This document shows, piece after piece, positions 599 to 62,506 of a stretch of 64,000 nucleotides of DNA (the stretch's first letter is position 1; every line of letters begins with the position of its first letter). Where the stretch lies: positions 24,142-88,141 of the IMG/VR virus record IMGVR_UViG_3300042474_001076, one strand, 5' to 3'. Position numbers and translations under genes: made by a program. The notes under the pieces were generated by a model. It did no database searches. It had not been told where the DNA came from and was given only the letters and a program-made list of their open reading frames with translations. The DNA comes from a virus.

Positions 599-1693
599 TT
601 ATTTTTTAGTTCTCAACAAATATAACTCATTAACAAATTCCCAATTTACATAATTCCAAAAATTTCTAATGTATTCATCTCTTTTATTTCTATATCTTAA
701 ATAATATGCGTGTTCCCAAACATCAAGACCTAATAAAGGATAACCACCGTCTTTAACAACACTCATCATTGGATTGTCTTGGTTGGGTGTTGACATTATT
801 TTTAAAGTATTTTTTTTTGTTAAAATTAACCAAACCCATCCAGATCCAAATCTATCTTTGGCGGTTTGATTAAATTCATCTTTCATTTTTTTTATATTAC
901 CATATTGTTTTGTGATCTCGTCAAATATTTCACCACTTGGTTTTTGTTTTTTTGGTGATAACATTTTCCAAAACAAAGCATGGTTAAATGCTCCTCCGGC
1001 ATTATTTCTAATTACCGTATCATATTTTCCAATAGATTTAACAATATCTTCTAACTCAACATCACCATAATCTTTTTTTGATAAAGCGTCATTTAATTTT
1101 TTAACATACCCTTTATAATGTTTATTATAATGAATGTTCATTGTTTCAGGGTCAACAAATTTATTTATTGATGAATATGAATAAGGTAGTTTATCAATAC
1201 CAATTTTTTTCATCTCTAATATAAAATTTTCACGTATATTTTCTTTTTCAGATAATATAATTTGTTCATTTATTAAATTTATTTTTTTTCCAATACCAAC
1301 TAAACCTTCATACATAAATTTTTCATATTTAGGGAAGTCACGTTCAAATTTTTTAATAACCGATCCGGCTTCAGAATTAGCTTCATCTTCATTTTGACCA
1401 CCAATATCTTGACCTCTTTCCATACCTTTAGTTGTTCGTTGCCATTCGTGTACCCATTCATGAGCCAATGTCCTACAAACATCACGATTTAATCGACCTT
1501 TAGTTAAAATTTTAAGTTCTGAATTTTCTGTTCTACTTCCAGTTGACATTTCACCATTTCTTTCCCCTAAAAACATAATTGTAATATTGTTTTTAATTGG
1601 GTATTTTTTTTGTAAATATTTTATAAAATCTTCCATTAAAGTTTTATCTTCTTTGGACATATCACATTTAATGTGTTTAATTGTTGCTTTCAT
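599..1693 (-). CDS. Zinc-peptidase-like domain fused to Fe/Mn superoxide dismutase
   Basis: Two domains are visible. Residues about 12-125 carry HExxH (H78, E79, H82) followed by EDEAN, where E104 is a plausible third zinc ligand; this arrangement resembles the IrrE/ImmA-type gluzincin peptidases. Residues about 168-362 are a complete iron/manganese superoxide dismutase, which converts superoxide to hydrogen peroxide and oxygen. Metal ligands are H188, H238, D324 and H328 (LDVWEHAYY). G234 and Q305 (NQDNP) fit the Mn-type arrangement. The linker is about 45 residues and shows no frameshift. The gene stands alone between a strong terminator and the gp13-like gene. The TATTTATA element ends only 4 bases before this ATG, so the ATG at 1660 (MSKEDKTL) could be the true start. 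No signal peptide is seen. SOD identity is near certain, while peptidase activity is inferred. Confidence 0.9.
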   Translation of the reverse strand: MKATIKHIKCDMSKEDKTLMEDFIKYLQKKYPIKNNITIMFLGERNGEMSTGSRTENSELKILTKGRLNRDVCRTLAHEWVHEWQRTTKGMERGQDIGGQNEDEANSEAGSVIKKFERDFPKYEKFMYEGLVGIGKKINLINEQIILSEKENIRENFILEMKKIGIDKLPYSYSSINKFVDPETMNIHYNKHYKGYVKKLNDALSKKDYGDVELEDIVKSIGKYDTVIRNNAGGAFNHALFWKMLSPKKQKPSGEIFDEITKQYGNIKKMKDEFNQTAKDRFGSGWVWLILTKKNTLKIMSTPNQDNPMMSVVKDGGYPLLGLDVWEHAYYLRYRNKRDEYIRNFWNYVNWEFVNELYLLRTKK

Positions 1694-7189: not shown

Positions 7190-10100
7190 ATGGCAAACAG
7201 TAAAGTATTTGTATCGCCGGGAGTATACACTTCTGAAGTAGATTTAAGTTTCGTAGCACAAAGTGTTGGTGTTACAACCTTAGGTATTGCGGGAGAAACA
7301 TTAAAAGGACCCGCTTTTGAACCAATTTTTGTAAGAAATTACGATGAATTTCAAAACTATTTTGGGGGTACTTCACCCGAAAAATTTATTAACACACAAA
7401 TCCCTAAATATGAGGCGGCATACATTGCGAAATCATATTTACAACAATCTAATCAATTATTTGTAACAAGAATTTTAGGTCTTTCAGGTTATGATGCTGG
7501 ACCATCTTGGTCAATCTTAACTGAAGCAAATGTTAATTGTTCAACAATTGATGTTAATTGTTTTAGTTCAGTGACCGTAAATTGTGAACAACAATGTGTT
7601 ATTCCTTTGGAGTTACCATATTCTGTTGATTTTACGGGATGTACGGATTCAACTTCTAGTATTGAATATATGACACACTTCCCTCAGGAAATATTGGATT
7701 TATTGGATGTGAGTTATGAAACTCCACAAGGAGGAACATCAACTTTGGATAGTAATATAAAAGAATTAATTTTTAATGTAATAACAAATTCAAACCCATT
7801 AATTGCGGAAGACCAATATATTAGTTATTTTGGTAGTGTTGATGATAATGATTATAATGCGTTAACGGTTAATGGATCATACACCGCAACAACAAACGTT
7901 TATGGTGTACCGTCAATACCTTTTAGTGGAAATAATTTATGTGATGGAGCAAACACATCGTGGTATTATTCATTATTTGATAATGTTGGTGGCGGAAGTT
8001 ATACAGGATTCTCATTTTGGTCAATTGTTACTGGTGTAACTAATATTACTCCAATTACAACAACCACAACCGCACCAACAACAACATCAACAACAACCGA
8101 CCCTTGTGTTATTCCTGTTCCAACAACAACAACAACAACAACAAGTCCTATTCCTGTTGAGTGTTTTTCAGGATCAGTAATGGGCGTAATTTATTATTAT
8201 ACAGGAACATCATATACAGAATATGATGATATGGTTGTGGCAACATTTAGATCAAGAGGTATATCAACATATTCAAATGGTAATAACCCAATTTATGAAG
8301 TATCTAATTTGGCAGACGTAGTTTTAGATATGACAGGACAATATTCTGGTGTATTACAAAACCCATATCTACCATTTGGTGTTAATGTTACTAATAAAGA
8401 TGGTGTTAATTTTAACTTTGAAACGTCTTTTGCAACAAGTGACTCACAATATATAACAAAAGTTTTTGGTACGGATAATTTTGGTAAACCAAGAACAGTG
8501 GTTCCTTTATTTGTTGAAGAAAGGTTTCAGGCTTTATTAAACTATGGTTGGAGAAAAGGATTTATTAGAGGATTAAATCCAACATTAGTAGATTTAAATT
8601 CTGCACAAAGTAATGCTTCGGATTCTATTGGTTGGTATTTAGATAAATACCAAACACCAAGTTCTCCTTGGGTAGTATCTGAACTTAGGGGTACAAAAGT
8701 TTATAACCTATTTAAATTTTACACAATTTCAGATGGTGATTCAGCTAATTATGAAATAAAAATATCAATTGGTAATATTTCGTTTTCAAATCAAACATTT
8801 GATGTGTTTATTCGTGATTATTATGATACGGATTCAAATCCAGTTGTGATTGAGAAATTTACTAACTGTAGTATGGATCCAAGTCAAAATAATTTTATTG
8901 CAAAAAAGACAGGTTCATTAGATGGTGAATACCAACTTAATTCTAAATATGTTATGGTAGAAATGAATGAAGATGCTCCTGTTGATGCACTTCCTTGTGG
9001 TTTTGATGGGTTTAATTTTAGAACTTATGGTACCGCAACATCACCATTTCCTGTTTATAAAACAAAATACGATTTTCCTGGAGAAGTTATCTTTAATCCT
9101 CCATTTGGAACACCAATTCAAAGTGGTGGAGATAATGTTAGAAGAACCTATTTAGGTATTTCTAATAATAATAGTTGGGATGGTAATTATTTTGAATATA
9201 TTGGTAAACGAAATACAATCTCAACTTGTGATATTGAAAGTGTTGATTGGAATTATAAATCAAAAGGTTTCCACATGGATAAGGATGCTTCAGGAATAAC
9301 TATTTCAGATGCCTTTACAACATCAGGAACATCTAAATTTAATGTAGGGTCGGCAAATTTCTCATCTGAACCTAATAACCCAACAAGTCCTTATTATAGA
9401 ATTTATTCAAGAAAATTCACTTTATTAGTACAAGGAGGTTACGATGGTTGGGATATATATCGTGAACATAGAACTAACAGTGATAGATATGTTTTAGGAA
9501 GAACTGGTTATTTAAATGGAGCGTGTCCTGATAACAGATATCCAAATGCAGTTGGTTGGGGAGCATTCAAACAAATTGCTGTTGGTGATGGTACTCAAGA
9601 TTTTGCAAATACTGACTACTATGCTTATTTATTAGGAATTCAAACATTCTCTAATCCTGAAGCGGTTAACATTAATGTGTTTGTTTCACCGGGTATTGAT
9701 TATGTTAATAATAGTGACTTAGTTGAATCAACAATAGACATGATTGAAAATGAAAGAGCGGACTCACTTTATATTACAACAACTCCCGATTATAATATGT
9801 TTTTACCAACAACTACAGGTAATGATGGTATTATTTATCCTCAAGAAGCGGTAGATAATTTAGAAACAACAGGAATTGATTCTAACTATACCGCAACTTA
9901 TTATCCTTGGGTGTTAACTCGTGATAGTGTAAACAATACACAAATATATATACCGGCAACTGCTGAGGTAACTAGAAATTTAGCCTTAACAGATAATATT
10001 GCGTTCCCTTGGTTTGCAGCGGCAGGTTACACAAGAGGTATTGTAAACTCAATTAAAGCACGTAAAAAATTAACTCAAGAAGATAGAGACACTCTTTACC

Positions 10101-10501
10101 AAGGAAGAATTAATCCAATTGCAACCTTCTCTGATGTAGGAACCGTAATTTGGGGTAATAAAACTTTACAAGTAAGAGAGTCAGCTCTTGATAGAATTAA
10201 CGTGAGAAGATTGTTATTACAAGCTCGTAAATTAATCTCAGCAGTATCTGTAAGATTATTGTTTGATCAAAATGACGAACAAGTTAGACAAGACTTTTTA
10301 AACTCCGTAAATCCAATATTAGATGCTATTAGAAGAGATAGAGGTTTATATGATTTCCGAGTTACAGTTTCTTCTGACACAGCAGACTTAGATAGAAATC
10401 AAATGACAGGTAAAATTTATATTAAACCAACAAGATCCTTAGAATTTATAGATATTACATTCTATATAACACCAACTGGAGCATCATTTGAAGATATTTA
10501 A
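7190..10501 (+). CDS. gp18: Tail sheath protein (gp18-like), enlarged
   Basis: The N-terminus has the sheath signature SPGVYTSEVDLS (residues 9-20). The C-terminal 200 residues carry the conserved sheath core, including AYLLGIQTF, NVFVSPGIDY, ARKLISAVSVRLLFDQN and the final SLEFIDITFYITPTG. The protein polymerises around the tail tube and contracts at infection. At 1103 residues it is far longer than T4 gp18 (659). The extra length lies mainly between residues about 110 and 700 and includes a Thr-rich linker at 287-325 and several cysteines. Such insertions normally sit on the outer face of the sheath, so they are likely exposed on the virion. The start is fixed by homology, and no Shine-Dalgarno sequence is present (AAAAAAAGACA before ATG). 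A terminator follows directly. Confidence 0.93.
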   Translation: MANSKVFVSPGVYTSEVDLSFVAQSVGVTTLGIAGETLKGPAFEPIFVRNYDEFQNYFGGTSPEKFINTQIPKYEAAYIAKSYLQQSNQLFVTRILGLSGYDAGPSWSILTEANVNCSTIDVNCFSSVTVNCEQQCVIPLELPYSVDFTGCTDSTSSIEYMTHFPQEILDLLDVSYETPQGGTSTLDSNIKELIFNVITNSNPLIAEDQYISYFGSVDDNDYNALTVNGSYTATTNVYGVPSIPFSGNNLCDGANTSWYYSLFDNVGGGSYTGFSFWSIVTGVTNITPITTTTTAPTTTSTTTDPCVIPVPTTTTTTTSPIPVECFSGSVMGVIYYYTGTSYTEYDDMVVATFRSRGISTYSNGNNPIYEVSNLADVVLDMTGQYSGVLQNPYLPFGVNVTNKDGVNFNFETSFATSDSQYITKVFGTDNFGKPRTVVPLFVEERFQALLNYGWRKGFIRGLNPTLVDLNSAQSNASDSIGWYLDKYQTPSSPWVVSELRGTKVYNLFKFYTISDGDSANYEIKISIGNISFSNQTFDVFIRDYYDTDSNPVVIEKFTNCSMDPSQNNFIAKKTGSLDGEYQLNSKYVMVEMNEDAPVDALPCGFDGFNFRTYGTATSPFPVYKTKYDFPGEVIFNPPFGTPIQSGGDNVRRTYLGISNNNSWDGNYFEYIGKRNTISTCDIESVDWNYKSKGFHMDKDASGITISDAFTTSGTSKFNVGSANFSSEPNNPTSPYYRIYSRKFTLLVQGGYDGWDIYREHRTNSDRYVLGRTGYLNGACPDNRYPNAVGWGAFKQIAVGDGTQDFANTDYYAYLLGIQTFSNPEAVNINVFVSPGIDYVNNSDLVESTIDMIENERADSLYITTTPDYNMFLPTTTGNDGIIYPQEAVDNLETTGIDSNYTATYYPWVLTRDSVNNTQIYIPATAEVTRNLALTDNIAFPWFAAAGYTRGIVNSIKARKKLTQEDRDTLYQGRINPIATFSDVGTVIWGNKTLQVRESALDRINVRRLLLQARKLISAVSVRLLFDQNDEQVRQDFLNSVNPILDAIRRDRGLYDFRVTVSSDTADLDRNQMTGKIYIKPTRSLEFIDITFYITPTGASFEDI
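8055..8145 (+). repeat. ACA-type triplet repeats encoding Thr-rich linker in sheath
   Basis: Imperfect and perfect (CAA/ACA)n runs encode TTTTTAPTTTSTTT and PTTTTTTT, separated by a short Cys-containing stretch. The perfect run near 8122-8143 is a microsatellite whose length could vary in frame. Confidence 0.85.
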
Positions 10502-52300: not shown

Positions 52301-52367
52301 ATTGAATACCACCCAAAATTTTGAATTGAATGTGGGAATAAACTTTACTATCCTATGTAACCCATGA
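49350..52367 (+). CDS. Large baseplate/tail protein
   Basis: A 1005-residue protein. The segment FKSKGTRKSIEILLRMVGAP (residues about 450-470) resembles the core helix of P2 gpI-type baseplate proteins. The Trp/Tyr-rich second half contains WTQIIPKPKEKTFFEFAQTFWKNM, followed by a Cys-rich stretch, GCEIIPVPCKPCKL (about 840-853), that could bind metal. It overlaps the next gene by 4 bases (ATGA). It is probably the component that joins the baseplate to the adhesins that follow. The closest T4 counterpart is not clear. Confidence 0.65.
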   Translation: MATNKYKCPPQPASGQGTFSDNLVGFQLVDGGGFTQANFEFTTSISEKQDRTFSIGSFSEPISLDTLNISNIEESKKLIADNFRVYPNFDLSQVTNFTMFGSLTKRMSTSVTNIINYFPAALDINNVQTNFVISLTAQNIFYNSVEDETYFEIPISVIRNPFSIDYTVNATRNIELREISVSYLRNFTTQYLKYSLFLNDIEYPISDFIPAQVTDTVFKVYVNGDPFSGNTTTNSNFIIRPKQLYVNKVFNENLDQVENFLLNRNMVPIYSSYFNIPKENDDGQFYYTQEVAIFPLNGSWNLDIITPKFTNYLTKLNSLSESIDLYKTNLITRFLTADAIKEFDTSDQKIQKVLQIYGRSFDETRKFITALANMNSVNYNIKNDIPSQLLKNLAQTLGWNTNISPITNDQLLSSVFSNGSNSFTGLPIGQTPEELNYQYFRNLILNSAFLFKSKGTRKSIEILLRMVGAPEALTEFNEYIYLADQKINLRQFDIQYAQISGGTYSQELPVLDTNDLFSIMGVQYTGFTTTTITQDISLTNNDYPIDSYGFPSMPVPNDTYFFQIGGGWFESTPQHRMPEKVDLTNSVFTGSNPNYQTKLLPFNYGQEYLERYRSFPYMNLGFNLKKTVDNKKSWINNEKFLRKNFDGNFNAYYKVSDDRLVINVKNVDLFMNPSQGLVYDVWTMSRKYNYPIPEQGLSYIDPTYCNPYPNVEYPSRGGIDWTQIIPKPKEKTFFEFAQTFWKNMINVRNRQFNTDGKTSGYPTLSSIYWKYLESGMAINIPNDNFNYQTMIDYVNGMGDYWIRLVEQMIPATTIWNTGVKYENSIFHRQKFVWRRQRGCEIIPVPCKPCKLITQIFSYDCPIQQTVIGLYPWDTNPTITSFGALLGSSLTTYGNDNNLDINNDCLLNTLESDWYIDIRIDGSPIIIYPFFNGVGFSNPTLSTPTENNWVDSLYDSLTNLLDYGLSYTINTDDQTITIYNNNCLPLNTTQNFELNVGINFTILCNP

Positions 52368-54817
52368 GTTGTGGACAAATAATATATAATCTTTATATCT
52401 CTGGTGATTGTACTAATACTAATGTTGGAGAAATTTACATTGAGATAACTGGTGGTACTTCACCCTACACTGTATATGAAATTTCCTCAACAGGTTTATT
52501 ACCAACATCAGCATCCACAACAACTTATTATTTTAGTGGTATGTCTGCCGGCACATATAGTTTGGCAATCCAAGACTCGTGTATAAATCCAACTTTTGAT
52601 ACAATATACTTAAACATACCAATATCATCGGGAACATCTATAAGTGTTGAAAATGTAATAAATACAACTTGTGGTAATGATGATGGAGAAATAACATTTG
52701 GGTTTAATCCTTTTTATGGGTTTGGATCTGCATTGCTTTATGAAACAACAAACGGGTATATAAATAGTGGGTCAACACCAACTAGTGGAATAACCTTTTC
52801 AAATTTATCGGGAGGAACTTATTATATTGTTGGTGATGATGGTGCAGGGTGTAATGGAGTAAGTTCGAGCGTACCAATTTTATCATCAACAACTTTTTCT
52901 TACGGGTTTTATGTTGTTGACGATGCAAGTTGTAATGTTGCTTTTGGTTCGGGAAAAATATTTGTTACTGGACAAACAGGAGTTGGTCCTTATACATATG
53001 TTTGGAATGATGGACAAACAGGATCTACAGCAACTGGATTAACGGTTGGATATTACACTGTTACCGTAACAGATTCAAATGGATGTTCCGTTTCCGATAG
53101 TATTTCGGTTAATAATGTTCCGCCAATTGGAATATCTTCTTTTTTAACAACAGGAAGCACTTGTTTTAATAGTGATGGTGTGGTTGAAGTCACTGTTACT
53201 GGAGGGACAGCACCATTCTTTTTTTCTGGATCTAATGGGGATACAATAGTTACATTCTCAAACACATACACATTTCAAAATTTACCTTCAGGTATTTTAA
53301 CCGTTACTGTTAAAGATGCTGGATTATGTAGTGATACTCAATCAACTTCGTTAACAACACCCAATGGATTTACTATTTCATCAATTAACACAACAAATTC
53401 TAATTGTGGTAATAATGGGTCAATAACAATAGTTGTTAATACTGGATCCCCTACGGGAACATTTACCTATACGTTACTGAATTCTTCCGGAAATACGGTT
53501 AATACAACAACTGTTGGTACTAACACAACTTTTAATAATTTACAATCAGACACATATACAATTTTGATTGATAATAATTCAGGATGTGTTTATACTGGAA
53601 CCACAACAGTTACAAATGTTAATTTGTTTACAATAACTGCGGTTACAACTAATACCACATGTGGATTAAATAATGGTACCTTACAGATATTAACAACTAG
53701 TGGGGGTACATTACCATATACTTATCAAATTACTGGATACGCAATATCTCCAATTAATTTTTATAATAATTTACCTTTTGGGTTTTATAATGTTACCGTG
53801 ACCGATGCAAATGGTTGTTCACAAACAACAACAGCATATGTTGGACCATCAAATTCCGTATTTTTTAATTTATTTGCAATACAACCTGTTAATGGAAATG
53901 ATGGTGAAATAAGTTCTTTTTTAAGTAGTGGTTATCCACCTTTTACTTATAATTGGAGTTCAAATGTAAACTCACAAACTGGATCAACAGTAACTAATTT
54001 AAGTGCGGGAACATATACATTACAAGTTGTTGATAGTTCTGGATGTACACATACTAAATCAATTGTTTTATCAGGAACTATACTTTTAGGTAATTATCAA
54101 GTTTACAATATAAGTGACACTAATTTTGTTAATACTGGAATTGATGGTATGAGAGGAATAGGACAAATGTATAGTGAGGGATTTTTTGATTTAACATACA
54201 ATGATTTAGGGTGTGTAATTAATGGTGCAGAATTTATTATTGAAACAAGTGTAAATGGGGTGATAAAACAAAACTTATTTTATACCTCAATAGGACTTTA
54301 TGATTACCCAACAGATATTGAATGGATTAATATAATAAAATTAATGTTATTATCTTATCCGGATATTGGTGAAGTTGATATAGACATTGTTAAAAACAAA
54401 ATAACTATTGTGAATGATTGTGAAGACATCAATAAAAGTTGTGTACCAACTAAATTTAATACGTTATCTGATGCAAAAGTTGTAATTAATTTAATAATAA
54501 ATTATGATATTTCTTGTGTTGAATGTGATGTCCCTACACCAACACCATCCCAAACAAATACCCCAAATTTAACACCGACCCCAACACCGACCCCAACATT
54601 TGTAAATAAATGGATAGTTTCCGATTGTTGTGGATTAGTTTCAAATATTATTTTAATATTACCTTTAGGGACTATTGCGGGTCAATTATTAGTGTACAAT
54701 AGTAATTGTTGGACCACAGTTTCAACAACTAATGGTACGGCAGTTGGTACCGCAACCCCATTTCTTTTTTCCAGTAATTGTCCAACGTGTATAGCATCAT
54801 ATCCATGTAGTGGGTAA
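52364..54817 (+). CDS. Tail adhesin with about seven SprB-like repeats
   Basis: An 817-residue protein. Residues about 1-570 contain roughly seven repeats of 70-85 residues. Each has a Cys-x-(N/D)-x-(N/D)G start, then TGGTxPYTY, a GxYTVTVTDxNGC end and a strand. This is the SprB repeat pattern (PF13573) of gliding Bacteroidetes adhesins. A globular domain follows (about 580-720), then a Thr/Pro linker ([22 protein letters not shown], about 725-746) and a C-terminal Cys-rich tail (CIASYPCSG). It likely forms a fibre contacting the host surface. The start overlaps the previous gene. Confidence 0.8.
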   Translation: MSCGQIIYNLYISGDCTNTNVGEIYIEITGGTSPYTVYEISSTGLLPTSASTTTYYFSGMSAGTYSLAIQDSCINPTFDTIYLNIPISSGTSISVENVINTTCGNDDGEITFGFNPFYGFGSALLYETTNGYINSGSTPTSGITFSNLSGGTYYIVGDDGAGCNGVSSSVPILSSTTFSYGFYVVDDASCNVAFGSGKIFVTGQTGVGPYTYVWNDGQTGSTATGLTVGYYTVTVTDSNGCSVSDSISVNNVPPIGISSFLTTGSTCFNSDGVVEVTVTGGTAPFFFSGSNGDTIVTFSNTYTFQNLPSGILTVTVKDAGLCSDTQSTSLTTPNGFTISSINTTNSNCGNNGSITIVVNTGSPTGTFTYTLLNSSGNTVNTTTVGTNTTFNNLQSDTYTILIDNNSGCVYTGTTTVTNVNLFTITAVTTNTTCGLNNGTLQILTTSGGTLPYTYQITGYAISPINFYNNLPFGFYNVTVTDANGCSQTTTAYVGPSNSVFFNLFAIQPVNGNDGEISSFLSSGYPPFTYNWSSNVNSQTGSTVTNLSAGTYTLQVVDSSGCTHTKSIVLSGTILLGNYQVYNISDTNFVNTGIDGMRGIGQMYSEGFFDLTYNDLGCVINGAEFIIETSVNGVIKQNLFYTSIGLYDYPTDIEWINIIKLMLLSYPDIGEVDIDIVKNKITIVNDCEDINKSCVPTKFNTLSDAKVVINLIINYDISCVECDVPTPTPSQTNTPNLTPTPTPTPTFVNKWIVSDCCGLVSNIILILPLGTIAGQLLVYNSNCWTTVSTTNGTAVGTATPFLFSSNCPTCIASYPCSG

Positions 54818-54878
54818 TATAAGTTTTTATATTAATTAACAATATTGACTTATTACACATATACTATATTTTAGTTAT

Positions 54879-55859
54879 ATGGAAGATATTATTTTTGTGT
54901 CCGCTCAACCTGATGTTCCTTATTTTCATTGGCAAATAAAACTTTATACTCATAACTTTATTGAAAAGGGAATTAATCCTTGTCAAATTCATGTTATTTT
55001 TGGATTAACTAATGGACAAACAGAACCTTCTAAGGGAGCGTTAGAACTATGTGATTACGGGTTTAATGTACATTTTTACATTGATGATAGAATAAGTAAA
55101 AATTATATCCCAAGTATCAAACCATATTTAATATCAAGATGGTTATTTGAATATCCTGAATATGGTAAAACTTTTTTCTTACATGATGCGGATATTATTT
55201 TTAGAGTATTACCCGATTTTAATAAATTAATGAATGATGATATTTCTTATTTATCGGATACAATTGGTTATATCGGATACAACTATATAATGGATTGTTG
55301 TAACAGATATGAAAAAGCACACCCAAAATCAGAAAAAGGTCAATTATTAAAAGAAATGGCAAATATTGTTGGAATAAACGTTGACATAATTAAAGATAAC
55401 CAAGAAAACTCAGGTGGGGGTCAATATTTATTGAAAAATATGACATATAGTCTTTGGGAAAAAATATATTTGGATTGTTATCCTCTTTATAAACAAATGC
55501 ATAGTTATCACAAAAGACACCCAATAAGTCCTGGTGAAATCCAATTTTGGACGGCAGAAATGTGGTCTTTATTGTGGAATTTATGGTTATTAAATTATGA
55601 TACTAAAGTTGTTGATGATCTTAATTTTTCTTGGGCAACAGATAATTTAAAAGTATATGAAGAAAGACCTATTTTACATATGGCTGGAGTTACAGATAAT
55701 TTAAAAAGTAATAAATTTTATAAAGGAGAATATATTACAATTGACCCTATTTTAAAACTTAAAGAAAACCCATCCCACTTTGATTATATTGAAATTAATA
55801 GTACAACAATAAAATATATTGAAGTAATGAAATCATTTATTCAAAAAACAATAAATTGA
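54879..55859 (+). CDS. GT-A-type glycosyltransferase
   Basis: A 326-residue protein in the middle of the adhesin genes. A conserved strand-turn FFLHDADIIF contains D103-x-D105, the DxD metal and sugar-nucleotide site of GT-A enzymes. NSGGGQYLLKN (about residues 177-188) and an EIQFWTAEMWSLLW segment follow. The pattern is similar to the plant and protist Hyp/Ser-type glycosyltransferases. No signal peptide is present, so it would act in the infected cell. The substrate could be virion proteins, host polysaccharide or phage DNA. Location between fibre genes with Ser/Thr-rich linkers favours fibre modification (inference). Confidence 0.75.
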   Translation: MEDIIFVSAQPDVPYFHWQIKLYTHNFIEKGINPCQIHVIFGLTNGQTEPSKGALELCDYGFNVHFYIDDRISKNYIPSIKPYLISRWLFEYPEYGKTFFLHDADIIFRVLPDFNKLMNDDISYLSDTIGYIGYNYIMDCCNRYEKAHPKSEKGQLLKEMANIVGINVDIIKDNQENSGGGQYLLKNMTYSLWEKIYLDCYPLYKQMHSYHKRHPISPGEIQFWTAEMWSLLWNLWLLNYDTKVVDDLNFSWATDNLKVYEERPILHMAGVTDNLKSNKFYKGEYITIDPILKLKENPSHFDYIEINSTTIKYIEVMKSFIQKTIN

Positions 55860-55860
55860 T

Positions 55861-55868
55861 TATTTATA
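55861..55868 (+). promoter_or_regulatory. TATTTATA element upstream of the adhesin gene
   Basis: It lies 19 bases before the ATG at 55888, directly after the stop of the glycosyltransferase. Confidence 0.5.
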
Positions 55869-55887
55869 TAGTAAAGAAATAACTTAA

Positions 55888-57948
55888 ATGGTTTATCAAG
55901 TAATAAATAGTGGTTCGGTAATTTATAATAACTTTACGTTTACTGACGACAATAACGTTATTAAAGTGGTTGATTTATCACCTGGGGTTTCTTATTATAT
56001 TAATGGTAATATTAGTGTTACAAACCCACTCTTATATATTAACTCACTTACAAAAGGAACAATAAGATATTGTTTTCAAAGTTGTTGTAATGATGATTCT
56101 TTTTATTTTGACGGACCACCTACATCAGTTTTTGGAAATTATTTAAATGGTGTTATAATTTATTTTAATGAGGCCTTACTATCTTCAAACCCTAATAATT
56201 ATAAATCTGGTTGTTATGAATTAGTTGGACGTGGTCTTTCCTCCACATATGACTGTAGTATAGTTGGATCTGAAAGTGTTACTTTAGTTCAGTTTAATGT
56301 TAATGAGTATAATAATTGTGATACCTGTGTTATAGATAATAGTTGTTGTACTAATTATTTTGTAACTAATCAATCCTCACAAAACGTTAAGACAAAGATT
56401 GAATTTACTCCATGTTGTGATGAGGGAAAAAAATCACCATATAATATGCCTTACCAAACAGGTATTTCTATATGTAGCTCAACAGGAGTAAAAGTTTTAT
56501 CGGGAGATATACAAATTATTAACAATGGTAAATGTACCCCTTGTACAATAACAACTACGACTAACCCGATTGTTACAACAACAACAACTTTTGCACCACC
56601 AAATCCACCAATTGAACCTAAAAACGAATGTGATGTTATAACAATTTTTCCTCTCGGTGTTGAATGTTTTACAGTTGACCCATTAACATCAAGTTCTTTT
56701 GACGGGTTAATTACTTTAGGTATAACAGGGGGGACTCCTCCTTATGAGGTTATTTGGGAAAACGGATCTATCTCACAATCTTTAAGTAATCTTGGGGTTG
56801 GAAAATATGATTCAATCGTTACTGATTATTACGGGGATTTTACGGCATATACCACTTGTGTTTTAGGGGTTGAAATACCAATTACAACAAGTACAACAAC
56901 TTTTAATCCTTTACCGATATACGAAGATATCTGTCTTACAATTATAAGAGGAAATAAACAACAATCTTATGTTGAATATTATGAATTTCAATATAATGGG
57001 TACATTGATGATTACCCAACTTGGGAGGATACTATAAATAGTTTAGATATTGTATGGAATCTTAATGGTAATCAATGGCAAGTATCGGGTTGGACGGCGG
57101 GACAAATAATTAATATAAACAGTTCTACCCCACCATTATTTGGGTGGAATTCGATTGGAACATCATTACCTAATCAAATATTATCAATAACCGCAAATTT
57201 AGGATTATGTAATAAACTTAGTACTCCCAACTTAACAATAAGAGTTAATAGACCCGAATGTGGTTGTGATGGAAGTATATTATTAACTCCTTTTGGGGGA
57301 ACACCACCATATGAGTATTCAATCAACGGAGGATCAACGTATCAACCTACAACAATATATAATAACTTATGTCAAGGATCATATATTGTTTATGTCAGAG
57401 ATTCTTCAGGATTTACAAGTACTCAAACGGTTGTTTTACCTCCCCCAACTTCAAGTATAAACTATATTGTTACTATGTCTTACGCTTCTACTATATTTGG
57501 TACTAATGTGTTTAATGTAAATGTCTCTCCTTTATTACCAATTGGTGTAACGATTACTTTTGATGTAATTCATACTAACACATTTACCGTTGGACCATCA
57601 GCGGCAGCTGCCACTTATAACAACATAGCAACATTAAATGTTAATGGATCACCCGTCACCGCCACTAATCAATCAATAACTCCATTCTTACCACTTCCAC
57701 AAACATTTCCTTGTCAAGCATCTTTTAAATATTCCACAACAAGACAATATAATTGGATTAATTTATCTATGACATCAGGAACTATTATAAACGGTTCTTA
57801 TACTGATACAATATCTCCCGTTTTACCAACACCAAATTGTTTTATTGCAAACAGATACTACCACATTTATTTAAATAATGTAAAAATAAATAATAATTGC
57901 GATACGGTAAGAGTAGTTAATCCTTTAGGTGTGGGGATAAAAAAATAA
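55888..57948 (+). CDS. Tail adhesin with SprB-like repeats and Thr-rich linkers
   Basis: A 686-residue protein. It starts with a beta-rich Cys-containing domain (1-215, with CCNDD and CCTNYF motifs). A Thr linker (ITTTTNPIVTTTTTFAPP, about 222-240) leads into an SprB-like repeat (about 262-325, GITGGTPPYEVIWENG). A second linker (PITTSTTTFNP) precedes a further domain, and a second SprB-like repeat (about 455-515, FGGTPPYEYSING then RDSSGF) follows. The layout is beads on a string. It is likely another fibre or tip protein. No membrane segment is present. Confidence 0.75.
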   Translation: MVYQVINSGSVIYNNFTFTDDNNVIKVVDLSPGVSYYINGNISVTNPLLYINSLTKGTIRYCFQSCCNDDSFYFDGPPTSVFGNYLNGVIIYFNEALLSSNPNNYKSGCYELVGRGLSSTYDCSIVGSESVTLVQFNVNEYNNCDTCVIDNSCCTNYFVTNQSSQNVKTKIEFTPCCDEGKKSPYNMPYQTGISICSSTGVKVLSGDIQIINNGKCTPCTITTTTNPIVTTTTTFAPPNPPIEPKNECDVITIFPLGVECFTVDPLTSSSFDGLITLGITGGTPPYEVIWENGSISQSLSNLGVGKYDSIVTDYYGDFTAYTTCVLGVEIPITTSTTTFNPLPIYEDICLTIIRGNKQQSYVEYYEFQYNGYIDDYPTWEDTINSLDIVWNLNGNQWQVSGWTAGQIININSSTPPLFGWNSIGTSLPNQILSITANLGLCNKLSTPNLTIRVNRPECGCDGSILLTPFGGTPPYEYSINGGSTYQPTTIYNNLCQGSYIVYVRDSSGFTSTQTVVLPPPTSSINYIVTMSYASTIFGTNVFNVNVSPLLPIGVTITFDVIHTNTFTVGPSAAAATYNNIATLNVNGSPVTATNQSITPFLPLPQTFPCQASFKYSTTRQYNWINLSMTSGTIINGSYTDTISPVLPTPNCFIANRYYHIYLNNVKINNNCDTVRVVNPLGVGIKK

Positions 57949-57971: not shown

Positions 57972-60506
57972 ATGTCATATATAATAAAAAATACATCAGG
58001 ACTTGTTAACACCAGAATAACGGATACTGGCAGGTTAAAGATGTCACAAGGAAATTTTAATATAAGTTATTTTCAGGTAGGAGATAGTGAAGTTTCTTAT
58101 GATAAAGTTTCTGTTAGTTATAATCAAGTTAATAGTTTTGTCTTAACTCCACCGTTTGGAAGTCAAAATAGTGACGGAATACCACAATCAAATAAACAAA
58201 ATGTTAAATACCCATATTATGTGGATAATATTGGGGGAAATACATACGGAATTCCATACATGGACTCAACAGTTGAGTCTGTATTTAATCGGGCTCCTTT
58301 AAGGGGGTTTTTTAGTGGTAACACAACCGCAAGTACAATTAATTGGAGTGCGTTAACAAGTAATAATTATGTTAAAACTTCTAATTATTTGGTAAATCCA
58401 TTATCATTAAATGGTACTAATGAAATAACTTTAATTTATTCGGGATGTAACACATCTTCATTTGGAGGTTACGAGGTTGGTGATTTTATTACTATTTATT
58501 TTGATGGTTTAGGATGTGAAAATTGTTCATGTACCAATTTACCAACACCAACACCAACGGCATCACAAGGGTCCACACCCACACCTACTCCAACACCATC
58601 AGTAAGTAGTGGTTACATTAATTGTGAAAGTCCAACCCCAACACCCACCCCTACAAAAACAGAATGTTTGACACCAACACCAAGTAGACAATGTCCCGCA
58701 CCACCTGACCCCGTTTGTTTGATGTCATTATATAGTTGTTATCCAATTTTAACTTATAGAATTATTGCAATTTGTGAAAATAAAGTAACATTAGATAGAA
58801 CAACACCAGATTTTGGATTAATAAGTGACGAATGTTGTTTTAGAGCTTTAGTTTACCCTAAAAGTATGACAGATTTATATGATAGTATAACTCCAAGTCC
58901 ACATTGGGGTGATGACGTTATTAATTACGAAACATTATGTGATGTTGATAATTTTGACGTTAAAATTTGGAACATGAATATTCCTTGGACCGAAAATCCT
59001 GCTGGATTATTACCAACACAACATGAAGATTATACTTATTTTGGGTCTGTTAATTATATTGGTAGTAAAGAGTATTTTGGGTATAATTCAAACTTAGGAC
59101 AGACATTTTACGTAAATTCAGTATTAAGTGCTGAAACTACTGACACTTATTATTATAATTCATTTGATGAGGTTATTAAAGTTGAACCTGAAGAACAAAA
59201 AACAATTGCAATTATTCATTATACAAACCAAACGATTGATTTCTTTTATGGTGAAAAATTTGCGTTAGAACCATACGACACATCTAATCCTAATAATACA
59301 ACAGGTCAAGCTAGAAATTTTAAATTATATATACCATGGATTATGTGGCATAAAAATCCACAATGTTGTTTTGGATCTACTTTTTGGGTTGATCCACCTG
59401 ATTTTGAAGATAAAAACTTATTTGAAGTTCATTATATGGAATCAAATCAAAATAATGATATGAATAATCCTGGGTTAAGATATTATCACTTATGGGACAC
59501 ACACCCAAACAATGATGGATTACCAAGTAGAATTGGTAAAGTATTTCCAGATAGTCAAACAATTATTATTGATGATGAAGAAATTGTCGCAGCGTTATCT
59601 TATAAATCAAATAGAAATTGGACATTACCCGCACCACAAGTTTCTTTAATAACTCCAAATATTTGTGATACTACCTCGGGAGAAATTAATGGTATATTAA
59701 CAGGAAACAATGAAACTATGTATATTACATATAGAATTAGTAATGATTATGGTTTTACAAATTCATTACATTCTAATTATTATGTTAAAATTGTGGGTAA
59801 TAATAATGATTGTTTTCCTGATACATCTAAAAATGTTGCAATAAGATTTGGGGGAGAATTTGGATGTTTGGTTGTTCCTGGATATAATCCAACAACAACA
59901 ACAACTACATTTGGACCTATAACAACAACTACAACACTTAATCCTATTGTTACGACAACTACAACAATATGTCCTACCTGTGATATTCCAAATGGATTTT
60001 ATGGGACTAAATTTGAAGTATTGGCACAAAAAGTACCTACAGGGACAAGACCAGATTCTTCAAAATGGAAATTAATTGATTTTACTAATACTATAAGTGG
60101 ACAAACAATTAATGGTTATCTTACTGAAGATGCATTAACAGGAACTACATTTATTGTTACTGAATCGTTATATAATTCGGCACCATTCTATGATTTAAAT
60201 CAATATATTAATTTAACCCCTATTGGTAATGTTGGACCAAAATTAAATTTTGGAGATGAGTATTATTTCTACGGAGGTATTGAAACTGATATACAAGCAA
60301 CAATATATGAAATGATGTATAAGATTAATTTAAATTATACTGAATTTCAAAAAACATCAAATCCAACTTGGAAATCAGGAACTAATTCTTATATTACTGA
60401 AATAGCGTTGTTAGATGATAAAAAAGACGTATTAGTTGTCTCAAAGTTACAATCTCCTGTTTTAAGACAAGGAATTCAACAATTCTTAGTTAAGTTTGAT
60501 TTATAA
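57972..60506 (+). CDS. Tail fibre protein with Thr/Pro-rich linkers
   Basis: An 844-residue protein. The N-terminus (MSYIIKNTSGLVNTRITDTG and FQVGDSEVSYD) looks like a structural base domain used in a phage appendage. Residues about 190-240 are PTPTPTAS and PTPTPTPT linkers. Residues about 638-665 are Thr runs separated by short Pro/Asn stretches. The C-terminal domain has GDEYYFYGGIETDIQATIYEMM and ITEIALLDDKKDVLVV, then a final strand LRQGIQQFLVKFDL. This type of end recurs in baseplate-attached fibres. The gene closes the plus-strand tail operon. Confidence 0.75.
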   Translation: MSYIIKNTSGLVNTRITDTGRLKMSQGNFNISYFQVGDSEVSYDKVSVSYNQVNSFVLTPPFGSQNSDGIPQSNKQNVKYPYYVDNIGGNTYGIPYMDSTVESVFNRAPLRGFFSGNTTASTINWSALTSNNYVKTSNYLVNPLSLNGTNEITLIYSGCNTSSFGGYEVGDFITIYFDGLGCENCSCTNLPTPTPTASQGSTPTPTPTPSVSSGYINCESPTPTPTPTKTECLTPTPSRQCPAPPDPVCLMSLYSCYPILTYRIIAICENKVTLDRTTPDFGLISDECCFRALVYPKSMTDLYDSITPSPHWGDDVINYETLCDVDNFDVKIWNMNIPWTENPAGLLPTQHEDYTYFGSVNYIGSKEYFGYNSNLGQTFYVNSVLSAETTDTYYYNSFDEVIKVEPEEQKTIAIIHYTNQTIDFFYGEKFALEPYDTSNPNNTTGQARNFKLYIPWIMWHKNPQCCFGSTFWVDPPDFEDKNLFEVHYMESNQNNDMNNPGLRYYHLWDTHPNNDGLPSRIGKVFPDSQTIIIDDEEIVAALSYKSNRNWTLPAPQVSLITPNICDTTSGEINGILTGNNETMYITYRISNDYGFTNSLHSNYYVKIVGNNNDCFPDTSKNVAIRFGGEFGCLVVPGYNPTTTTTTFGPITTTTTLNPIVTTTTTICPTCDIPNGFYGTKFEVLAQKVPTGTRPDSSKWKLIDFTNTISGQTINGYLTEDALTGTTFIVTESLYNSAPFYDLNQYINLTPIGNVGPKLNFGDEYYFYGGIETDIQATIYEMMYKINLNYTEFQKTSNPTWKSGTNSYITEIALLDDKKDVLVVSKLQSPVLRQGIQQFLVKFDL
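58541..58685 (+). repeat. CCAACA-type repeats encoding Pro-Thr linkers
   Basis: Several imperfect (CCAACA)n runs encode PTPTPT stretches separated by short Cys- or Ser-containing spacers. Confidence 0.85.
59889..59967 (+). repeat. ACA-type repeats encoding Thr runs in the fibre gene
   Basis: Three imperfect (ACA)n clusters encode TTTTTTFGP, TTTTTLNP and TTTTTICP. They resemble the sheath linker at 8055-8145 in composition. Confidence 0.85.
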
Positions 60507-61234: not shown

Positions 61235-62506
61235 TTAATTTGGTGTTGGAGTTGGAGTTGGAAAACAATCAATTCCAGTATTTGTTACAGATATTGACCC
61301 ACTCAAAGAATATGGTGTTGAAAATGAATTAACTATAATACTTTGAGACACATTTAATGTTTGAGATATAATAACACCTAATAAATTTGTATAAACATAA
61401 GTTTCGGGTGATGTTGAAAGATTACTTAATAAGTATTGTACACAAATACCATTACAACAATCACCAATATTTGTAATAGTTGCAGACCCAACACCAATTG
61501 TAGGTATATTTTTAGAACAAATAATTACCTCATGATTTAACCAATTAGTCCAACGCATAGATCCAGGTCTTAACATAATGTTTTTACCAACACAATCTAA
61601 AAAACTAATTGTTGTGGTTAAAACACTAAAGTTCGAAATTCTATATGACAAACATAAACAAGGTGTTGTTGGTGTTGGTGTTATAGTAGGAGTTAATGTA
61701 GGAGTATTACTAATTGGGAAACAATTTAAACAACTACCTTCACTAGAAGGACCATATTCTGTAGTAATAACAACTTTGTCTCCACCACTTATGTTATCTA
61801 CAATTGTTTGAAAAATAAAACATGAAGATATTCCGTTTATTGTTCCACCATAAACGTCACCAACAACTAATAAATTACCAAAAGAATCAAATAATGTTTG
61901 TGTTGTATAGTATTCTATACCTGTAAAACAATCCTCAAATTTCTTACTAGTTGCACATACAATAAACCCATCAACACTATTAAATTTGGCAATACCATCA
62001 AAATTACATGGTCTATCAATTGGTGATGAAGGTGTGGGGGTTAATGTTGGTGTCGGAGTTGGTGTCGGAGAATATGTGTTTGCGGTAACATCTAAAGATA
62101 CTCCCCCACAAACATTAGTTGGTGTTGGTGTTGGAGTTAAAGTTGAGGTTGGTGTTGGGGTAGGAGTTGGGGTAGGAGTTACAAATACGTCACAATCAAA
62201 TAGTGCATCAAAATCAATAGAACAAGCTAGGGTTGGGGTTGGAGTTGGGGTTGGGCATAAACCGTCAACAAGAATTCCAGAATAAAAATCAGGACATGGA
62301 TTAACGGAATTTGTTGGACCAAATAAAATACAAGGATCTCCCAAGTTTGCAGCTAAACACCATCTACTTTCTGTTGTTGAATAAAAAATGTAATAACCAT
62401 TAGTGGCTCCCGTATAATAATCTAAACTATTATATAAACCATCTATTGTATACGTATCATCGTATATCCCCGTATTACTTATACAAATATCTATACTACA
62501 ACTCAT
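61235..62506 (-). CDS. Tail fibre/adhesin of Cys-modules joined by Thr/Pro linkers (inverted)
   Basis: A 423-residue protein on the minus strand, opposite to the other fibres. Modules of about 20-120 residues, several with paired cysteines ([44 protein letters not shown]), alternate with linkers such as [32 protein letters not shown] and [15 protein letters not shown]. It also ends in PTPTPTPN, so the last linker may continue into another chain or be cut. The gene follows the 73-residue gene by 1 base. Fibre role is inferred from shared linkers with the plus-strand adhesins. The opposite orientation is odd for this cluster. Confidence 0.7.
62031..62259 (-). repeat. Pro-Thr codon repeats in inverted fibre gene
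   Basis: GGTGTTGGAGTT-type runs on the plus strand are the reverse complement of the plus-strand repeats at 58541-58685, so they form an inverted repeat of low complexity with those. Confidence 0.8.

Follow-up and report, generated by a model that had tools for sequence, protein, structure and literature searches.

The analysed window comprises 64,000 nucleotides, corresponding to bases 24142-88141 of a virus record 88,141 bases long (IMGVR_UViG_3300042474_001076). On the forward strand, an open reading frame with an ATG start (54879..55859) encodes a putative glycosyltransferase of 326 amino acids (aa) with a DxD motif at residues 103-105 (D103-A104-D105; 55185..55193, +), between the genes of two SprB-repeat fibre proteins (52364..54817 and 55888..57948, both +). 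The sequence-only reading had proposed a DxD enzyme between fibre genes here, and the analysis returned the same gene with exactly the same limits and the same motif. SprB repeats are the repeats of a Flavobacterium gliding adhesin, and in the window they were found in two tail-region proteins (52364-57948). A further gene of the window (599..1693, -) encodes a phage Fe/Mn superoxide dismutase that is extended N-terminally by approximately 165 aa.

The enzyme matched PHROG 4417, a family with neither a name nor an assigned function, along its full length (E = 2.5e-66, residues 6-319). No Pfam match was obtained for the window protein or its family, and in the profile search of 34 members GT8 (PF01501) gave no hit at E up to 1, so that membership in CAZy family GT8 was not supported; likewise, a sequence search of the PDB gave no significant relative. 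The tblastn search detected the enzyme in 74 phage records (Lactobacillus, Enterococcus, Staphylococcus, Lactococcus, Arcanobacterium and Chryseobacterium phages), and IMG/VR contained at least 209 close relatives. None of the annotated phage records inspected had this gene labelled as a glycosyltransferase. Across an alignment of 34 relatives with 30-72% identity to the window protein, both aspartates of the motif (D103, D105) were invariant, as were W18, Y76, S126, G180, Q182, W193, Q222, W224, M228, W229, H267, G270 and K282.

The AlphaFold2 model of the window enzyme had a mean pLDDT of 96.3 and a pTM of 0.93. A Foldseek search against the PDB placed UGGT (GT24) first, followed by glycogenin, the xyloside xylosyltransferase XXYLT1 and LARGE1, all of them GT-A glycosyltransferases (E = 1e-7 to 1e-5, TM of approximately 0.4-0.5, 8-10% identity). 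The window enzyme is therefore predicted to be a glycosyltransferase of the GT-A fold, with retaining GT24/GT8 enzymes as its nearest neighbours. These enzymes (glycogenin, XXYLT1, UGGT) likewise combine a GT-A fold with a DxD motif, and several known GT8/GT24 members act on proteins or glycoproteins, whereas the low TM values and identities and the missing Pfam GT8 match set the PHROG 4417 family apart from them. By resemblance of fold, the chemistry would be retaining and H267 and K282 may have roles in it. A possible resemblance to the plant peptidyl O-glycosyltransferases HPAT/SGT around W-x(n)-DxD was a lead only: their profile PF23452 had no match in the 34 members at E up to 1, and at E = 10 it was silent in genome G000 but also in all control genomes, a test with no working positive control that gave this kinship no confirmation.

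The sequence-only reading had listed at least six virion proteins with Thr/Pro runs. The low-complexity runs are real, with five virion or candidate virion proteins as clear cases and seven when single T4 runs are counted (proteins 38947 and 49350), but they are of two kinds rather than one, poly-Thr and (TP)n. Poly-Thr was found in the tail sheath (7190..10501, +; PHROG 23 match), where an insertion holds T5 and T7 runs (residues 290 and 312; 8057..8143, +), in the SprB-repeat protein encoded directly 3' of the enzyme (55888..57948, +), with T4 and T5 runs at residues 222 and 230 (stretch TTTTNPIVTTTTT; 56551..56589, +), and in a conserved tail/fibre protein (57972..60506, +), with T6, T5 and T5 runs (blocks TTTTTTFGPITTTTTLNPIVTTTTT; 59892..59966, +) together with (TP)n. 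These three are candidate acceptors. The other SprB-repeat fibre/adhesin (52364..54817, +), not favoured as an acceptor, and a candidate fibre protein (61235..62506, -) possessed (TP)n runs only, a kind that does not track the enzyme (see below).

In Bacillota phages, the enzyme gene was located in the late structural operon, directly 3' of the gene for the major tail or capsid protein. A Thr-run ORF lay directly upstream of it in all 33 Bacillota prophage loci, and in 71 of the 74 Thr-run ORFs at these loci no more than 10 aa separate the run from the C-terminus. The C-terminally tagged proteins included tail tube, capsid, head and small decoration proteins, usually two or three different ones per locus; the folds of the candidate acceptors vary between phages while the tag is common to them. 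In phiFL1A, the tail tube ends in ...GTTTTTSTTTTTTSSTTTTTTTQASSK and the capsid in ...TTTTTKPTTTTTKPTTTTTTTQG; in iLp84, the capsid, a decoration protein and a tail protein all have poly-Thr ends; and in Iacchus, the gene upstream of the enzyme ends in poly-Thr. The Chryseobacterium phage MA9V-3 has internal poly-Thr/Ser runs in genes upstream of the enzyme. At L440, L448, L457 and L005 (6504-6881), the proteins encoded directly before the enzyme (113-125 aa) apparently consist of an Ig/Fn3-like domain followed by a poly-Thr brush of 50-60 aa. The tail protein of SA2 and TPWB06 ends with TTTTTTTT-P-stop at a CCC-TAA site (L004, position 7702; L006, position 7746) and a long poly-Thr follows in the +1 frame, an arrangement which suggests a programmed +1 frameshift that would add a poly-Thr brush to part of the tail subunits.

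The association was then examined by presence/absence tests anchored on homologues of structural proteins that were gathered without regard to the enzyme, and circularity was thereby avoided. Among 299 Bacillales genomes, the tail tube possessed the tag in 4/4 loci with the enzyme and 0/26 without it, and among 346 Lactobacillales genomes the capsid possessed it in 5/5 and 0/14, respectively (3/3 and 4/4 with the enzyme once the source genome of each query is subtracted; the enzyme-negative calls cover approximately 1.5 kb on each side of the anchor). A Bacillales tail tube that was 71% identical but had no enzyme beside it ended in TYPTAIPEA. The phiFL-type tail tube in IMG/VR gave 3/3 with the enzyme and 0/7 without. 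The SA2 tail-tube anchor recovered five enzyme-free loci only, closely related and without poly-Thr, which is consistent but weak. In a phylum-wide sample of Bacillota, the enzyme was present in 1 of 398 genomes, that of the query itself, and no further contrasts could therefore be drawn from it.

In the clade of the window, anchored on the 57972 protein, runs of T5 or longer were present in 39 of 40 loci with the enzyme and in 1 of 13 without it. With duplicate anchors removed, the counts were 28/29 and 1/8 (Fisher P = 6e-6). The tree needed seven changes of the enzyme label, at least four of them forced by well-supported branches, and Fisher values, which take no account of relatedness, are to be read alongside it. 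The two exceptions were L261, which possesses the enzyme but no T5 run, and L281, which has a T5 run but no enzyme. Of the two kinds of runs, poly-Thr alone co-varied with the enzyme: (TP)n runs numbered 6.45 per locus with the enzyme and 7.0 without it, and homopolymers of S, G, N, A and Q were rare in both groups and did not track it. As (TP)n repeats are equally common in enzyme-free relatives, they were rejected as the acceptor. The earlier proposal that the phage glycosylates its own virion has good indirect support, with poly-Thr in place of the Thr/Pro linkers it had named as the substrate.

In the reverse direction, IMG/VR stretches with ACN repeats contained the enzyme in 12 of 120 cases, in 10 of these 12 directly beside the Thr-run gene, compared to 0 of 114 control stretches with CAN repeats (P = 2.5e-4). 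The remaining 108 of the 120 poly-Thr stretches showed no copy of the enzyme within the stretch examined, which counts against the main reading. Over whole records, the ACNx6 DNA pattern was found in 10/10 enzyme-positive and 3/13 enzyme-negative ones; scanning the whole enzyme-negative records revealed no enzyme elsewhere in them. Other glycosyltransferase families were scarcely represented beside enzyme-free poly-Thr proteins, with one PF11397 and two GT2 proteins among 121 neighbours. In a phage that has no PHROG 4417 enzyme, the PF11397 GlcNAc-transferase gene (L097, 2881-3831) lies close to a poly-Thr protein, and its product may do the same work on this tag.

Run lengths peaked at 6-7 Thr, codons were mixed, and adjacent identical codons were not above expectation; the preferred length and the lack of such an excess argue against DNA slippage. 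Both features also bear on whether enzyme and tags simply co-travel in recombining modules with no functional link, as the modular evolution of phages and the adjacency of enzyme and tagged gene in Bacillota would allow. Such hitchhiking is highly improbable, given that several proteins not encoded next to the enzyme bear tags as well (2-3 per locus), that the pairing recurs in distant lineages, and that co-occurrence without linkage is partly seen, the sheath gene of the window being approximately 45 kb from the enzyme gene. T4-T7 runs were present in the sheath insertion of 6 of 10 enzyme-positive phages, the window included, and the remaining positives had (TP)n there or no run; T5 was found in the sheath of 0/5 enzyme-negative phages, which have a different insertion at the site. 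When the sheaths of G654-G661 were set against that of the window (7190-10501), the insertion appeared longer and probably folded in the enzyme-free relatives and in G654; in most enzyme-bearing relatives it is a short T-run or a TP linker.

As poly-Thr and (TP)n swap at this one sheath position, some Thr runs may be simple linkers. Extended to all runs, the same observation would make poly-Thr a mere flexible spacer and leave the enzyme to glycosylate other parts (SprB or Ig-like domains, for example), and the SprB repeats encoded by both genes flanking the enzyme would agree with it. This is unlikely, since homologous tail tubes and capsids that differ in the presence of the enzyme differ in the tag and not in the core, and since one tag is shared by otherwise different acceptor folds. 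The enzyme very probably acts on protein, and specifically on the runs of 5-8 Thr in virion proteins.

Homologues of the enzyme were also found in Bacteroidota hosts (Chitinophaga, Pedobacter, Sphingobacterium and relatives), where they formed a separate clade in the tree. The host clusters examined encoded a radical SAM/SPASM maturase, a C39 peptidase exporter, a LanC-like protein and GG-leader peptides, and RiPP clusters containing the homologue were found at L425, L428, L436, L446, L456 and L490. Some of the host homologues were fused to a second domain, such as Glyco_transf_7C in the L425 copy. The L490 precursor reads GG-VSWTTTTTTSSVP, with TTTTTT just after the GG leader; most host RiPP homologues had no poly-Thr nearby, and their precursors were mostly Cys-rich. 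These enzymes belong to the same family as that of the window but differ in clade, in precursor type and sometimes in domain content, and they possibly define a new class of glycosylated peptides. Three acidimicrobial/actinobacterial homologues (L420-L422) branch with the window clade, and at L420 a neighbouring gene has a TP-rich rather than a poly-Thr tail.

The location of host homologues in RiPP clusters independently suggests polypeptide acceptors. It bears on a further explanation, in which the enzyme would act on host surface glycans (serotype conversion, superinfection exclusion) or on phage DNA bases. Phage glycosyltransferases for both kinds of substrate are known, and glycan-synthesising GT8/GT6 enzymes were also among the structural neighbours detected by Foldseek. 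This explanation is nevertheless very unlikely here, as the gene lies within a late structural operon beside tail tube or capsid genes and tracks poly-Thr tags across phyla, in addition to the RiPP context of its host relatives.

Mycobacteriophage capsid and tail tube subunits are reported to bear C-terminal glycans (Freeman 2023, as cited in PMC12619734), and virion glycosylation is described for Che8 and Corndog (Freeman 2023, as cited in PMC12619734 and PMC11256854). The glycosyltransferases of Che8 and Corndog are phage-encoded too; at the same protein ends, the present analysis shows the poly-Thr tag. Compared with the enzyme family, the annotated Che8 glycosyltransferases gp108-110 scored below zero, which was not significant, and homology to them was ruled out. 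Moreover, gp108-110 are encoded at a distance from the structural genes, at the far genome end, unlike the enzyme gene here in its structural operon, and no poly-Thr tag is present on the capsid and tail proteins of Che8. The window system would therefore work like the mycobacteriophage one without being a member of it. No relevant report on poly-threonine in phage virions came up in literature searches.

Taken as a whole, the phage-encoded glycosyltransferase very probably modifies virion proteins of its own phage, and the best explanation, held with considerable confidence, is that it puts sugar on the poly-Thr of these structural proteins and that a mucin-like brush results. The enzyme would be cytoplasmic and probably metal-dependent, with a GT-A fold and, judging by fold resemblance, a retaining mechanism. 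It would use a nucleotide sugar as donor and glycosylate the threonines of short runs, before or during assembly; these acceptor runs would typically count 5-8 Thr, often in P-T6-7-xx-P blocks. The acceptor would be a C-terminal tag on the tail tube, capsid and small decoration proteins of Bacillota phages; in the window phage, a Bacteroidota myovirus, the sugar would go to internal runs of the sheath, within its insertion, and of fibre proteins. The particle would thereby acquire a mucin-like sugar brush, whose benefit, as a guess, could be protease resistance, stiff linkers, surface shielding or altered adsorption. The Asp-Ser/Thr O-glycosylation of Bacteroidetes, which the sequence-only reading had invoked, acts on exported proteins by means of periplasmic machinery; for this reason, and because enzyme and tag are paired in Bacillota and Arcanobacterium phages too, it was judged unnecessary for the explanation.

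More broadly, it is likely that enzyme and tags form a portable two-part module for virion mucinylation, in which a single glycosyltransferase family is paired with short poly-Thr tags grafted onto varied structural proteins (tail tube, capsid, sheath, fibres and small decoration proteins). The module would recur in phages of Bacillota, Actinomycetota and Bacteroidota that are unrelated to one another, and it would either derive from the glycosylation of RiPPs in bacteria or be shared with it. PHROG 4417, so far unannotated, would gain a likely function together with a precise acceptor sequence, and virion glycosylation is suggested to extend beyond mycobacteriophages. The joint presence of a poly-Thr tag and a PHROG 4417 gene offers a sequence signature by which glycosylated phages can be sought, and the two may serve as a compact pair of tag and enzyme with which to glycosylate proteins in the bacterial cytoplasm.
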